Shown here piece by piece: positions 24,643-29,072 of a stretch of DNA of 64,000 nucleotides. Source of the DNA: Alphaproteobacteria bacterium (lineage in GTDB: Bacteria; Pseudomonadota; Alphaproteobacteria; UBA8366); NCBI GenBank assembly GCA_028281325.1, contig JANQKC010000018.1:62001-126000 (forward strand), read 5' to 3'. The notes under the pieces were generated by a model. It had not been told where the DNA came from and did no database searches. It saw only the letters and a list, made by a program, of their open reading frames with translations. The position numbers were made by a program, and so were the translations under genes. Position 1 is the first letter of the stretch. Each line of letters starts with the position of its first letter.

Positions 24643-25263
24643 ATGTACCTGCCGCCCTATTTCGCCGAAGACGACCGCGAGATCCTCTACTCGGTCATCC
24701 GGGAGAACAATTTCGGCCTTCTGGTCACCGCGGGGGCCGGCGCGCCGTCGGCGACGCATCTGCCTTTCCTGCTCGAAGGCGACACGCTGGTGGCGCATAT
24801 GGCCCGGGCCAACCCGCAGTGGGAGGCCTTCGAGAGCGGGGCAGAGGTGCTGTGCGTCTTCCACGGCCCGCACGGCTACATCTCGCCGAACTGGTATGCG
24901 AACAAGAAGGCGGTGCCGACCTGGAACTACGTGGCGGTGCATGTCTACGGCGCGCCGCGCGTCATCGACGATCCGGCGGTTACGCTGGCGATGCAGGAAC
25001 GCCTGGTCGCCGCCCATGAGGCGGGATCGCCGACGCCCTGGACGATGGACGGTTTGCCGGACGGCTATGTCGAGGGCCAAATGCGGGCGATCGTCAATTT
25101 CGAGATTCCGATCGCGCGGATCGAGGGCAAGTTCAAGCTGAACCAGAACCGCAAGCCCGAGGACCGCGCCGGCGTGATCGCGGCGCTGCGGGCGAGCCCG
25201 CGCGCCGGTGACCGGGATCTCGCCGACCTGATGGCCGCGCGCGAGCCCGCGGACACGGCCTAG
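24643..25263 (+). CDS. PaiB-like FMN-binding protein
   Basis: A 206-residue protein of the PaiB family (flavin-reductase-like split barrel), annotated as a negative transcriptional regulator from the Bacillus subtilis pai locus; many members probably bind FMN and act as oxidoreductases. Signatures are MYLPPYFAEDDREILYSVIR, ATHLPFLLE, YISPNWYANKKAVPTWNYVA and KFKLNQNRKPEDRAGVIAAL. AGGAGA lies six bases before the ATG at 24643; the frame is open further upstream without support. It sits between sdhB and a three-gene oxidoreductase cassette, with a gap of 80 bases to the next gene, so it may belong to either group. Confidence 0.85.
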   Translation: MYLPPYFAEDDREILYSVIRENNFGLLVTAGAGAPSATHLPFLLEGDTLVAHMARANPQWEAFESGAEVLCVFHGPHGYISPNWYANKKAVPTWNYVAVHVYGAPRVIDDPAVTLAMQERLVAAHEAGSPTPWTMDGLPDGYVEGQMRAIVNFEIPIARIEGKFKLNQNRKPEDRAGVIAALRASPRAGDRDLADLMAAREPADTA

Positions 25264-25343: not shown

Positions 25344-26144
25344 ATGCGGCTGACCGATGAACAGCTCGAAACCTTCGACCGGGAGGGCTACGTCTTCCTG
25401 CCCGAGGTGTTTTCGCCAGCGGAAGTCGACGTGCTGATGGGGGAGGTGCCGGGCATTTTCGCGCTCGACCGGGTCGAGAATGTCCGCGAGAAATCCGGCA
25501 AGTCGGTGCGCACGACCTTCGCCGCGCACACCTTCAACGAGGCCTTCCGCCGCCTGGGCCGTCATCCGCGGATGATCGAGCCGGTGCGGCAGATTCTCGG
25601 TGGCGACGTCTACATGCATCAGTACAAGATCAACGCGAAGGCCGCCTTCGACGGTGACGTCTGGCAGTGGCATCAGGACTACGGCACCTGGGCGCGCGAC
25701 GACAAGATGCCGGAGGCGCGGGCGATGAACATCGCGCTGTTCCTCGAAGACGTGACGGAGTTCAACGGCGCGCTGATGTTCATCCCGCGCAGCCACAAGA
25801 AGGGCGTGATCGAGGCGGGGCACGACCTGGAGACGACGAGCTACCCGCTCTGGACGATCGACGAGGACACGATCTCCCGGCTGGTCGCGGAGGGCGGCAT
25901 CGTCTCGCCCAAGGGGCCGGCGGGATCGGTCATCATGTTCCATTCGACCTTGGTGCACGGCAGTCCGTCCAACATGTCGCCCTTCGACCGGACGATCGTC
26001 TATCTCAGCCTCTGTCACGTGGACAACCACATACGGCAGTTCAAACGGCCCGAATGGATCGCGCATCGGGATTTCGACCCGATCGTCCCGCTGGCGGACG
26101 ATTGTCTGATGGAACTCGCCGGGGAAACCGCTGCGGCGGACTAA
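25344..26144 (+). CDS. Phytanoyl-CoA dioxygenase (EctD-like) family protein
   Basis: A 266-residue Fe(II)/2-oxoglutarate oxygenase. The iron site is HxD in WQWHQDYGTW (about residues 111-113) with the distal His in STLVHGSPSNMSPF; the Arg for 2-oxoglutarate is in DRTIVYLS. The region resembles ectoine hydroxylase (HQYKINAKAAFDGDVWQWHQ, and EFNGALMFIPRSHKKG), but the EctD-specific FETWH sequence is altered to YGTWA, so another small substrate is likely. GGGAGG precedes the ATG. It heads a tight cassette with a COG4091 oxidoreductase and an SDR, 30 bases and -4 bases apart, suggesting a short catabolic or modification pathway. Confidence 0.87.
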   Translation: MRLTDEQLETFDREGYVFLPEVFSPAEVDVLMGEVPGIFALDRVENVREKSGKSVRTTFAAHTFNEAFRRLGRHPRMIEPVRQILGGDVYMHQYKINAKAAFDGDVWQWHQDYGTWARDDKMPEARAMNIALFLEDVTEFNGALMFIPRSHKKGVIEAGHDLETTSYPLWTIDEDTISRLVAEGGIVSPKGPAGSVIMFHSTLVHGSPSNMSPFDRTIVYLSLCHVDNHIRQFKRPEWIAHRDFDPIVPLADDCLMELAGETAAAD

Positions 26145-26174
26145 GCGCGCCGCGCTGCGGAAAGGACGGGAAGT

Positions 26175-27539
26175 ATGAATCTTCACAGAATGTTGCAGGC
26201 ACGCGCCGCCGAGGGGCGGCCGGTCCGCGTTGGGCTGATCGGCGCGGGGAAGTTCGGCGCCATGTTCCTGGCCCAGGCGGTCCGCACGCCCGGCATGCAT
26301 GTCATGGGCATCGCGGACCTGTCGCCGGACCGGGCGCGCGAGTCCTTGCGCCGGGTCGGCTGGCCGGAAGAACAATTCGCGGCGGGCGGTTTCGCCGACG
26401 CCATGCGCACGGGGGCGACGGCGGTCACCGATGACGCGGCGGGACTGATCGCCGCCGACGGCCTGGATGTGGTGATCGACGCGACCGGCAGTCCCGCCGC
26501 GGGTGTCCGTCATGCCTTGCTCGCCTGCGAGCACGGGCGGCATGTCGTCATGGTCAATGTCGAGGCCGACGTGCTGGCCGGGCCTTTGCTGGCCGAGCGG
26601 GCGCGCGCCGCCGGCGTCGTCTATTCGCTGGCTTACGGCGATCAACCGGCGCTGATCTGCGAGATGGTCGACTGGGCGCGCGCCGCCGGGTTCGACGTGG
26701 TGGCGGCCGGGAAGGGGACAAAGTATCTCCCCGCCTTTCATGCCTCGACCCCGGACACGGTCTGGGGATATTACGGCCTGACGCCGGCAGCGGCCGAACG
26801 CGGCGGGATGAACCCGCAGATGTTCAATTCCTTCCTCGACGGCACGAAGTCCGGGATCGAGATGGCCGCGGTCGCCAACGCGACGGGCCTGACGCCGCCG
26901 AAAGATGGGCTGGCCTTTCCGCCCTGCGGAGTCGACGACTTGCCCACGGTGTTGCGGCCGCGCGGCGACGGCGGCGTGCTCGACGGCAAGGGCATGGTCG
27001 AGGTGGTGTCCAGCGTCGACCGGAGCGACGGGCCGATCGACCGTGATCTCCGCTGGGGCGTTTATACGGTGTTCGACGCGCCCAGCGATTACGCCATGCG
27101 GTGCTTTTCCGAATATGGGTTGCGCACCGACGACAGCGGGCGCTATGCGGCGATGTACAAACCCTATCACCTGATCGGACTGGAACTTGGCATCTCGGTC
27201 GCCTGCGCGGCGTTGCGGGGCGAGCCGACCGGCATGCCCGACGCCTGGCGCGGCGATGTGGTCGCGACGGCGAAACGCGATCTGGCGGAGGGCGAGATGC
27301 TGGACGGCGAGGGCGGCTACACGGTCTGGGGCAAGCTGATGCCCGCTTCGGACTCGCTGGCGCTCGGCGGGTTGCCGATCGGGCTGGCGCATGGCTGCCG
27401 CTTGAAACGGCCGGTTGCCGAGGGTGTCTCGGTGCGCTGGGCCGACGTGGACATGGACGAGACGCAGGAGATCGTAAAGGTGCGCCGCGCGATGGAAACA
27501 CGATTCGGGACGGCACGGCCGGCGGCGGTGGCGGAATGA
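26175..27539 (+). CDS. NAD(P)-dependent oxidoreductase with C-terminal SAF domain (COG4091-like)
   Basis: A 454-residue protein of the group called predicted homoserine dehydrogenase with SAF domain. Rossmann fold: RVGLIGAGKFGAMFLAQAVR, then VVIDATGSPAAGVRHALLAC and VNVEADVLAGPLLAERA. The mid region (AYGDQPALICEMVDWARAAG, AGKGTKYLPAFHASTPDTVW) is shared with these proteins. The last 90 residues (AKRDLAEGEMLDGEGGYTVW, then LPIGLAHGCRLKRPV) form the SAF-like domain, found also in sialic-acid synthase and FlgA. The substrate of this family is not settled to my knowledge; it is not an ordinary homoserine dehydrogenase. The stop overlaps the SDR start (ATGA), so the two act together. Confidence 0.82.
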   Translation: MNLHRMLQARAAEGRPVRVGLIGAGKFGAMFLAQAVRTPGMHVMGIADLSPDRARESLRRVGWPEEQFAAGGFADAMRTGATAVTDDAAGLIAADGLDVVIDATGSPAAGVRHALLACEHGRHVVMVNVEADVLAGPLLAERARAAGVVYSLAYGDQPALICEMVDWARAAGFDVVAAGKGTKYLPAFHASTPDTVWGYYGLTPAAAERGGMNPQMFNSFLDGTKSGIEMAAVANATGLTPPKDGLAFPPCGVDDLPTVLRPRGDGGVLDGKGMVEVVSSVDRSDGPIDRDLRWGVYTVFDAPSDYAMRCFSEYGLRTDDSGRYAAMYKPYHLIGLELGISVACAALRGEPTGMPDAWRGDVVATAKRDLAEGEMLDGEGGYTVWGKLMPASDSLALGGLPIGLAHGCRLKRPVAEGVSVRWADVDMDETQEIVKVRRAMETRFGTARPAAVAE

Positions 27540-28282
27540 GCAAGATCGCCATCATCACCGGCGGCAGCCGGGGCATCGGCGCGACCTGCGCGCGGCTGCT
27601 CGCCACGCAAGGGTACGACATCGCGCTGACCTATCTGAGCAACGCGGACAAGGCGGATGCCGTCGCCGCCGACGTGCGCGCGGCCGGGCGGCGGGCGGTC
27701 ACGCTGCAGGCGGACATGGCGGTGGAAGCGGATATCCGACGCATGTTCGAGACGGTGGACCGGGAGCTGGGACCGGTCGCCGCGATGATCAACAATGCCG
27801 GCATCACCGGCGGCTTCGCTCGTATCGAGGATGTGGACGGCGACGTGGTGCGGCGCGTGATGGACGCCAACGTGACCGGCTCGATCCTGTGCTGCCGCGA
27901 AGCCGTCAAGCGTATGTCGACCAAACACGGCGGCGCGGGCGGCGTGATCGTCAACCTGTCGTCGCTCGCGGCGTTTACCGGCAGCCCGAACGACTATGTC
28001 TATTACGCGGCCAGCAAGGCGGCGGTGAACGCGCTGACGGTGGGATTGGCCAAGGAAGTGGCGGGCGACGGTATCCGCGTCAACGCGGTGGCGCCCGGGG
28101 CCGCGGACACGGATATCCATGCCGATGGCGGGCAACCGGATCGCCCGGCCCGGCTCGCCAAGGTCCTGCCGATGAAACGGATCGCCACGCCGGAGGAAGT
28201 CGCCGCGACGGTGGCCTTTCTGTTGTCCGACGGCGCGTCCTATATCAGCGGCGCGGTCGTCCCGGTCACCGGGGCCGCCTGA
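27536..28282 (+). CDS. Short-chain dehydrogenase/reductase
   Basis: A classical SDR of 248 residues: cofactor motif TGGSRGIGATCARLL, NNAGITGG, catalytic Ser in VNLSSLAAFTG, YYAASKAAV with the YxxxK pair, and the tail ISGAVVPVTGAA. An Arg-free TYLSNADKAD after beta-2 leaves NADPH versus NADH preference open. The start ATG overlaps the previous stop, so it is translationally coupled. In the cassette it probably oxidises or reduces a hydroxyl/keto group on the substrate made by the dioxygenase; this is inference from gene order. Confidence 0.88.
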   Translation: MSKIAIITGGSRGIGATCARLLATQGYDIALTYLSNADKADAVAADVRAAGRRAVTLQADMAVEADIRRMFETVDRELGPVAAMINNAGITGGFARIEDVDGDVVRRVMDANVTGSILCCREAVKRMSTKHGGAGGVIVNLSSLAAFTGSPNDYVYYAASKAAVNALTVGLAKEVAGDGIRVNAVAPGAADTDIHADGGQPDRPARLAKVLPMKRIATPEEVAATVAFLLSDGASYISGAVVPVTGAA

Positions 28283-28400: not shown

Positions 28401-29072
28401 ATGACACGTGTGGGGCGCTTGGCCTTGGTGGGCTTGGTGGTGTTGCTGGCGTTTCCGGCTTGGGCGAAGGACCGCGCCGGGTTCTACACCGGCCTGCGTT
28501 TGGTAGGATCGGTCGCCGACCTGAACGACGAACAGACGACGGGCTTCAACGGTCCGTTGATCACCAACAACGGATCGGACCTTGTCGGCGGCGGCGGCGG
28601 CGTGTTCGGCTATCGTTGGGGCCGTTTTCCGTTCCGGACGGAAATTGAAGTCGCGCACCGGGTGCGGTTCGACTGGGACGCGCGCGATGGCGGGCCGCCG
28701 CAGATCGGTTACGAGAACAACCTCGACAGCACCAATGTGCTGTTCAACATGCTGTTGGAATATCGCAATCTCAGCGATTTCACGCCGTTCCTCGGCGGCA
28801 CGGTCGGCTGGTCGCGCAACAATTCGGAAATGCGGCGGACCGTCATCGCGACCAACACCACGATCTCCCAAAGCACGGTGGTCAATAACGTCGCCTGGGG
28901 CGTCATGATGGGGGTCGACTGGGGATTCGGCGAAAAATGGTCCGCCGAATTCGCCTACCGCTACATCAATCTCGGCGAGGTGGATAGCGGCGTCTTTCCC
29001 GCCGGCGACCGGTTGAAGGCCGACGAATACGTGTCGCACGATATTTTGATTTCCGTCCTGTACAAATGGTGA
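28401..29072 (+). CDS. Outer-membrane beta-barrel protein
   Basis: A 223-residue protein with a Sec signal peptide (hydrophobic LALVGLVVLLAFPAWA, cleavage after AWA) followed by alternating amphipathic strands typical of a small eight-stranded barrel: FYTGLRLVGSVADLND, GGGGGVFGYRWGRF, FTPFLGGTVGWSRNN, WGVMMGVDWGF, SAEFAYRYINLGEV. The last residues HDILISVLYKW end in an aromatic, the usual outer-membrane insertion signal. Resembles the porin-family/OmpA-like barrels of alphaproteobacteria (P44/Msp2 type); cargo or role unknown. It is followed by a terminator hairpin. Confidence 0.8.
   Translation: MTRVGRLALVGLVVLLAFPAWAKDRAGFYTGLRLVGSVADLNDEQTTGFNGPLITNNGSDLVGGGGGVFGYRWGRFPFRTEIEVAHRVRFDWDARDGGPPQIGYENNLDSTNVLFNMLLEYRNLSDFTPFLGGTVGWSRNNSEMRRTVIATNTTISQSTVVNNVAWGVMMGVDWGFGEKWSAEFAYRYINLGEVDSGVFPAGDRLKADEYVSHDILISVLYKW

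Follow-up and report, generated by a model that had tools for sequence, protein, structure and literature searches.

Closest described systems and organization of the locus

The oxidoreductases of the COG4091 family were surveyed by Carretero-Paulet et al. (2013, PMC3847144), who split them into DXR-II, DLO1 and DLO2. In that survey, DXR-II enzymes are marked by the substrate-anchoring residues Lys191, Lys193 and Thr229 and by the interface residue Arg320. DLO1 and DLO2 are described there as uncharacterised, and none of the four DLO members tested could rescue an E. coli dxr mutant; DLO2, which was named in 2013 without a function, is listed from Polynucleobacter, Bordetella petrii and Methylobacterium, among others. 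The ectoine hydroxylase EctD, which belongs to another superfamily, carries the 17-residue signature FxWHSDFETWHxEDG(M/L)P (PMC5924519) and contacts 5-hydroxyectoine through Gln-127, Thr-149, Trp-150 and Arg-280 (PMC6890836). Here we study a locus that combines relatives of both systems in a stretch of 64,000 nucleotides from an Alphaproteobacteria bacterium (contig JANQKC010000018.1, positions 62,001 to 126,000, hereafter the window). It is made up of the following genes:

25344..26144, + strand: P0001, PhyH-family Fe(II)/2-oxoglutarate hydroxylase (266 aa; PF05721 and alignment-assigned catalytic residues)
26175..27539, + strand: P0002, COG4091/DRL oxidoreductase (454 aa; Rossmann NAD(P) domain, DRL_cat and C-terminal SAF-like domain)
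27536..28282, + strand: P0003, SDR-family dehydrogenase, an optional third gene (248 aa; PF13561)

The family assignments are clear (PhyH PF05721, 5.9e-33; DRL_cat PF21135, 3.3e-60; SDR PF13561, 1.4e-54). The original prediction, made from the sequence alone, described three tightly packed genes, two of them with overlapping codons. The packing on one strand was borne out, and the overlap exists at one of the two junctions only: P0001 and P0002 are separated by 30 bp, and P0002 and P0003 share the 4 bp ATGA, in which the SDR start lies inside the DRL stop.

The hydroxylase and the DRL form a pair

The distribution of these genes was studied in 385 class-level and 398 phylum-level genomes. Presence of the hydroxylase in the class-level genomes was called at E<=1e-100, with E<=1e-60 as a looser alternative. 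For the hydroxylase loci, identical sequences were counted once and matches with <57% identity or <85% coverage were dropped; identical DRLs and matches shorter than 400 residues were removed from the DRL set. Most names of neighbouring genes come from reading their N-terminal sequences, part of them verified by family search.

The tight unit is the pair of hydroxylase and DRL, two genes rather than three. In the class-level sample, PhyH is present in 64 genomes and the DRL in 90; all 64 PhyH-bearing genomes, which span 33 families and 45 genera, have both genes and none has PhyH alone. The association is very strong (Fisher, 3e-52 over genomes, uncorrected for relatedness; 5.7e-36 over the 45 genera). 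The phylum-level sample gives the same picture, as the DRL occurs in 36 genomes and in each of the 18 with PhyH (5 shared with the class-level sample and 13 new), and within the window's order the DRL accompanies PhyH in 21 of 23 genomes. The two genes lie within 250 bp of each other in 35 of the 64 class-level genomes and within 3 kb in 6 more (41 in total), and elsewhere in the genome in the other 23. Seen from the hydroxylase, 76 of 85 distinct loci have at least 3 kb of downstream flank, and 58 of these carry the DRL downstream in the same orientation. Seen from the oxidoreductase, 25 of 80 named DRL loci adjoin the hydroxylase, in Alpha-, Beta- and Gammaproteobacteria and one Acidimicrobiaceae metagenome-assembled genome; examples, besides the latter, are Stella, Dongia deserti, Bordetella petrii MY10, Bradyrhizobium sp. 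Leo170 and a Polynucleobacter (divergent). A tree of 200 DRLs requires at least 16 changes of PhyH linkage (SH-aLRT support only, labels assigned by locus and not by genome), and therefore coupling and uncoupling occurred many times.

Since the two genes travel together through many unrelated bacteria, they probably perform two steps of one undescribed small-molecule route. The idea of a linked and undescribed short oxidation module thus gains support: PhyH almost never occurs without the DRL and, far from being found only apart, the two genes adjoin in many genomes. The three-gene unit that had been proposed does not hold, as the SDR stands behind only 16 of the 58 pairs. The DRL-SDR combination is also found beside zapE without PhyH in the window's order. 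Other dehydrogenases recur as well: a 3-hydroxyisobutyrate-dehydrogenase-type cluster comprises 14 loci and is near the DRL in 13 of them (a raw count). In one genus, a gene named by eye as beta-keto-acid cleavage-type lies near the SDR.

All three families are known, and the obligatory-looking pairing of hydroxylase and DRL appears undescribed in the open literature: we found no description of the PhyH-DRL pair among articles under open licence, one search of which brought up PMC3847144 alone. With a hydroxylase that is almost always accompanied by the DRL and whose closest relatives have known amino-acid substrates, the function of DLO2 becomes a small testable screen. A widespread metabolic step may be absent from current maps, because 64 of the 385 class-level genomes have the pair, which makes it common in Alphaproteobacteria, and because it also occurs in freshwater and soil genera such as Polynucleobacter and Bradyrhizobium. 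The enzymes might, moreover, serve as hydroxylation catalysts.

The hydroxylase is related to amino-acid hydroxylases

P0001 scores 115.4 bits against PF05721 (gathering score 22) and has the iron triad and the 2-oxoglutarate arginine, which places it in the PhyH/Fe(II)-2-oxoglutarate superfamily. All 86 orthologues have the alignment-assigned iron ligands H110, D112 and H205 as well as this arginine, R216. A lid motif, GHDxxTTSYPLW, occupies positions 159-170 and is almost fixed across the orthologues (H160-D161-x-x-T-T-S-Y-P-L-W170); it defines a hydroxylase group that appears to be undescribed in the open literature.

The closest structures to the predicted model are GriE (Z 26.4, 242 aligned, 3.0 A), H11 (Z ~24-25, 36-38% identity) and EctD (Z 23). 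GriE is an L-leucine hydroxylase and H11 a trans-3/4-proline hydroxylase. P0001 shares with GriE and H11 the fold, the length and the HQxK(I/V)NxK and WHQD segments at 34-38% identity, but its lid (158-170, AGHDxxTTSYPLW) is kept in neither of them. No DRL partner is known to us for GriE or H11.

The original prediction took P0001 for an EctD-like oxygenase with a changed FETWH motif. The change is real, but the EctD identity is not. In the region of the published signature, P0001 reads W107-QWHQDYGTWARDDK-MP123, so that FETWH becomes YGTWA with T and W kept; the full segment 107-123, WQWHQDYGTWARDDKMP, departs from the signature of PMC5924519. Against the EctD model TIGR02408 (NCBIfam), P0001 reaches 171.7 bits, below the cut-off of 336.5. 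The broken signature and this score rule out EctD, and the preference for osmolytes suggested at the outset is not supported, P0001 being structurally nearer to leucine/proline hydroxylases. What P0001 does share with EctD, apart from the fold and the T-W of FETWH, is the set of contacts with 5-hydroxyectoine given in PMC6890836: Gln-127, Thr-149 and Trp-150 align with Q93, T115 and W116, and Arg-280 probably corresponds to R235, via an alignment of KRPE(Y/W) with a second EctD. These residues are conserved in the orthologues (Q93, W116 and R235 in 86/86, T115 in 85/86).

A sister group of 8 loci (44-53% identity) keeps TTSYPLW and has a histidine at position 116 (TH instead of TW). In three of these loci an SHMT gene lies within 100 bp of the hydroxylase (L246 7929-10121, L250 6646-8813, L251 5301-7445), and one of the three genomes keeps another SHMT gene at a distance of 3 kb, beside a gene read as rpiB. 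SHMT acts on hydroxy amino acids, and the association looks like a second hydroxylase-plus-aldolase-type module; it therefore favors amino-acid substrates for the whole hydroxylase group. No SHMT gene adjoins the window-group hydroxylase among the loci compared. Because leucine/proline hydroxylases are its nearest relatives, the ectoine-contact residues are kept and the sister group stands beside SHMT, we favor an amino-acid-like substrate for P0001. Two sister loci (L246 and L249) also adjoin hemB.

The oxidoreductase most likely belongs to DLO2

The predicted model of P0002 (pLDDT 93) matches the Brucella DRL (3upl) over its full length (Z 48.2, 425 aligned, 1.7 A, 33% structural identity), followed by DXR-I and homoserine dehydrogenase (Z ~17-19). 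The Brucella protein is also its only sequence match in the PDB. An identification of P0002 as D-apionate oxidoisomerase (ApnO), a mechanistic cousin, was dropped, as the literature on ApnO offered nothing of use in the search made and the PDB sequence matches are restricted to the Brucella DRL. The Rossmann part of the predicted Rossmann-SAF architecture was recovered; the SAF domain missed the 1e-3 report limit in P0002 and passed it in an orthologue (L258, 33 bits).

Polynucleobacter, Bordetella petrii and Methylobacterium, three of the names on the published DLO2 list, have DRLs that share 63-71% identity with P0002. By this match of genera P0002 most likely belongs to the uncharacterised DLO2 branch. 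The passages of the survey consulted here give no function or operon partner for DLO2, and the PhyH partner is new relative to them. The "unsettled function" originally attributed to the protein is inexact for COG4091 as a whole, which holds verified DXR-II enzymes, and apt for the branch to which P0002 most likely belongs.

When no hydroxylase adjoins, DRL genes are found in TRAP-importer operons together with a quinol-monooxygenase-like protein, a 3-hydroxyisobutyrate-dehydrogenase-type enzyme and gluconokinase, or beside UxaA, PdxA, isocitrate-dehydrogenase-type and IlvD/EDD-type dehydratase genes. One arrangement recurs, a DRL followed by a putative quinol monooxygenase and an NAD(P)-dependent oxidoreductase (L097 8001-14088, L324 7001-12530, L326 7001-12472, L328 7001-13088, L325 7001-9590), on rhizobial and rhodobacterial plasmids, with a TRAP transporter in four of the five cases and gluconokinase in two. 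Probably, this operon encodes an acid-degradation pathway not described before. A DRL only 44% identical to P0002, in a small AT-rich genome (1.2 Mb contig), abuts an upstream gene that was read by eye as an EamA-type transporter (L286 6474-8653).

A proposed oxidative route and its alternatives

We propose that the hydroxylase and the DRL act one after the other in a single short oxidative route, a reading to which we assign a probability of about 0.5. That the genes are linked and co-occur is observed, as are their family membership and the conserved residues; the reactions, their sequence and the class of substrate are inferred. In the first step P0001 would use Fe(II), O2 and 2-oxoglutarate, as is known for its family, to add a hydroxyl group to a small carboxylate. 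This substrate would most likely be a neutral L-amino acid or a close analogue, gripped by Q93, T115, W116 and R235 beneath the GHDxxTTSYPLW lid. P0002 would then use NAD(P)+ to oxidise the resulting alcohol and might shift the carbon skeleton as its DXR relatives do, and the SDR, where present, may work on its product. This optional third step would vary among lineages, as a 3-hydroxyisobutyrate-dehydrogenase-type or a 2-hydroxyacid dehydrogenase may adjoin the DRL instead, and in hydroxylase-free genomes the DRL alone would serve other entry routes. A more specific version is something of a long shot: the DLO2 enzyme would oxidise and rearrange a hydroxylated amino-acid skeleton, a DXR-type reaction in the oxidising direction, and the pair would be a two-gene means of opening an amino acid that is branched or would otherwise be degraded slowly, in parallel with the hydroxylase-SHMT pair of the sister group.

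Several observations weigh against the proposed route. Two of the 23 PhyH-bearing genomes of the window's order have no DRL at E<=1e-30, both of them drafts (G022, 64% complete; G030, 96% complete in ~790 contigs), and at the looser PhyH cut-off of E<=1e-60 the DRL is found in 68 of 69 class-level genomes, the one without it being G049. The pairs are unlinked in 23 of the 64 class-level genomes, and the model of P0001 is of only moderate quality (mean pLDDT 72). The surroundings of DRLs without hydroxylase point to a hydroxy or sugar acid rather than an amino acid, which tempers the amino-acid reading. Finally, the dependence is asymmetric, PhyH needing the DRL and not the reverse, and this also fits a DRL that acts before PhyH.

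This last point leads to the main rival, in which the order is reversed: the DRL and its partners would make or release a small molecule, such as a protective solute or an exported product, with the hydroxylase adding the final decoration, in the way EctD hydroxylates ectoine. Such tailoring predicts the same asymmetry, and EctD is a structural relative of P0001. EamA-type transporters, which are often exporters, also speak for it: 5 of 16 loci without a nearby DRL and 3 of the 58 paired loci have one at most 3.5 kb from PhyH. No conserved transporter of the pair was found. Against tailoring, no recurrent biosynthetic genes were found alongside the pair in the neighbourhood comparison, and a TRAP importer adjoins the pair in Polynucleobacter. 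Further evidence against it comes from the GntR/FCD regulators, which are common in catabolic operons: such a gene lies just upstream of 22 of the 35 pairs located away from sdhB and zapE. Over all PhyH loci with sufficient upstream sequence, one precedes 27 of 77. We hold this reversed order to be possible but unlikely.

Another alternative is a sugar-acid route: the hydroxylase would make a polyhydroxy acid from a deoxy or methyl hydroxy acid, and the DRL would be an aldonate-type dehydrogenase or an oxidoisomerase. The importers, gluconokinase, dehydratases and other enzymes around the hydroxylase-free DRLs speak for it. Nevertheless, the DRLs of those operons are mostly 53-57% identical and belong to separate branches of the tree (Chelatococcus, with 67%, is an exception), and the relatives and kept contacts of the hydroxylase suggest amino or imino acids, so that this route, too, seems rather doubtful.

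It is very improbable that P0002 is a true DXR-II which makes 2-C-methyl-D-erythritol 4-phosphate (MEP) for isoprenoids next to an unrelated PhyH neighbour. The closeness to the Brucella DRL in fold and sequence agrees with such a role, as does the conservation of K191 (K180 in P0002), but among the other DXR-II marks of the survey T229 is replaced by S226 and R320 by K329; K193 aligns with T182, with K183 adjacent, at an alignment gap where the position is uncertain. P0002 also has a longer catalytic loop, and the genome already encodes its own DXR-I (PF02670, 145 bits). The genera of the closest DRLs are on the DLO2 list, none of the four tested DLO members replaced dxr, and the link with PhyH is too strong for chance.

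The sdhB-zapE interval in the window's order

The surroundings of the hydroxylase and oxidoreductase orthologues were read in 43 genomes of the window's order. In the window, the three genes are flanked upstream by sdhB and a PaiB-like gene and downstream by an outer-membrane barrel gene and zapE; for the two neighbours listed below only their position is considered, and no pathway role is claimed for the first.

24643..25263, + strand: P0004, PaiB-like FMN_bind_2 protein
28401..29072, + strand: P0005, outer-membrane beta-barrel protein between the SDR and zapE

The usual layout in the order is sdhB-paiB-(PhyH or PEMT-like gene)-DRL-(SDR)-(outer-membrane protein)-zapE-mdh, and in the window's own family sdhB-paiB-PhyH-DRL-(SDR)-outer-membrane protein-zapE-mdh. 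Two other families have the DRL directly 5' of zapE, mostly with the SDR and without PhyH. In one of these two a PEMT-like membrane methyltransferase replaces the hydroxylase before the DRL (L079 6343-6969, L080 6343-6966, L083 8421-9005), and a fourth family has a GntR-PhyH-DRL-(SDR) group that is either free-standing or adjoins zapE. The third-position GC content (GC3) of the three genes is 0.857-0.883 and their codon weights are inside or near the range of the flanking genes; this comparison with the flanks, which had been suggested as a check, rules out a recent transfer of the cassette. Because the layouts recur across the order and codon use agrees, the cassette genes are an old component of the sdhB-zapE interval and not an insertion. 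They do not interrupt a conserved sdh-zapE-mdh order, as had been thought, and are instead its usual filling. That the genes often share this interval could suggest long-standing neighbours with no joint function, an explanation hardly credible given that 35 of the 58 pairs occur apart from sdhB and zapE and that the 23 unlinked genomes still keep both genes.

Across the order, sdhB regularly has the PaiB-like gene beside it, and the outer-membrane beta-barrel protein is also present in relatives, at 35-90% identity.

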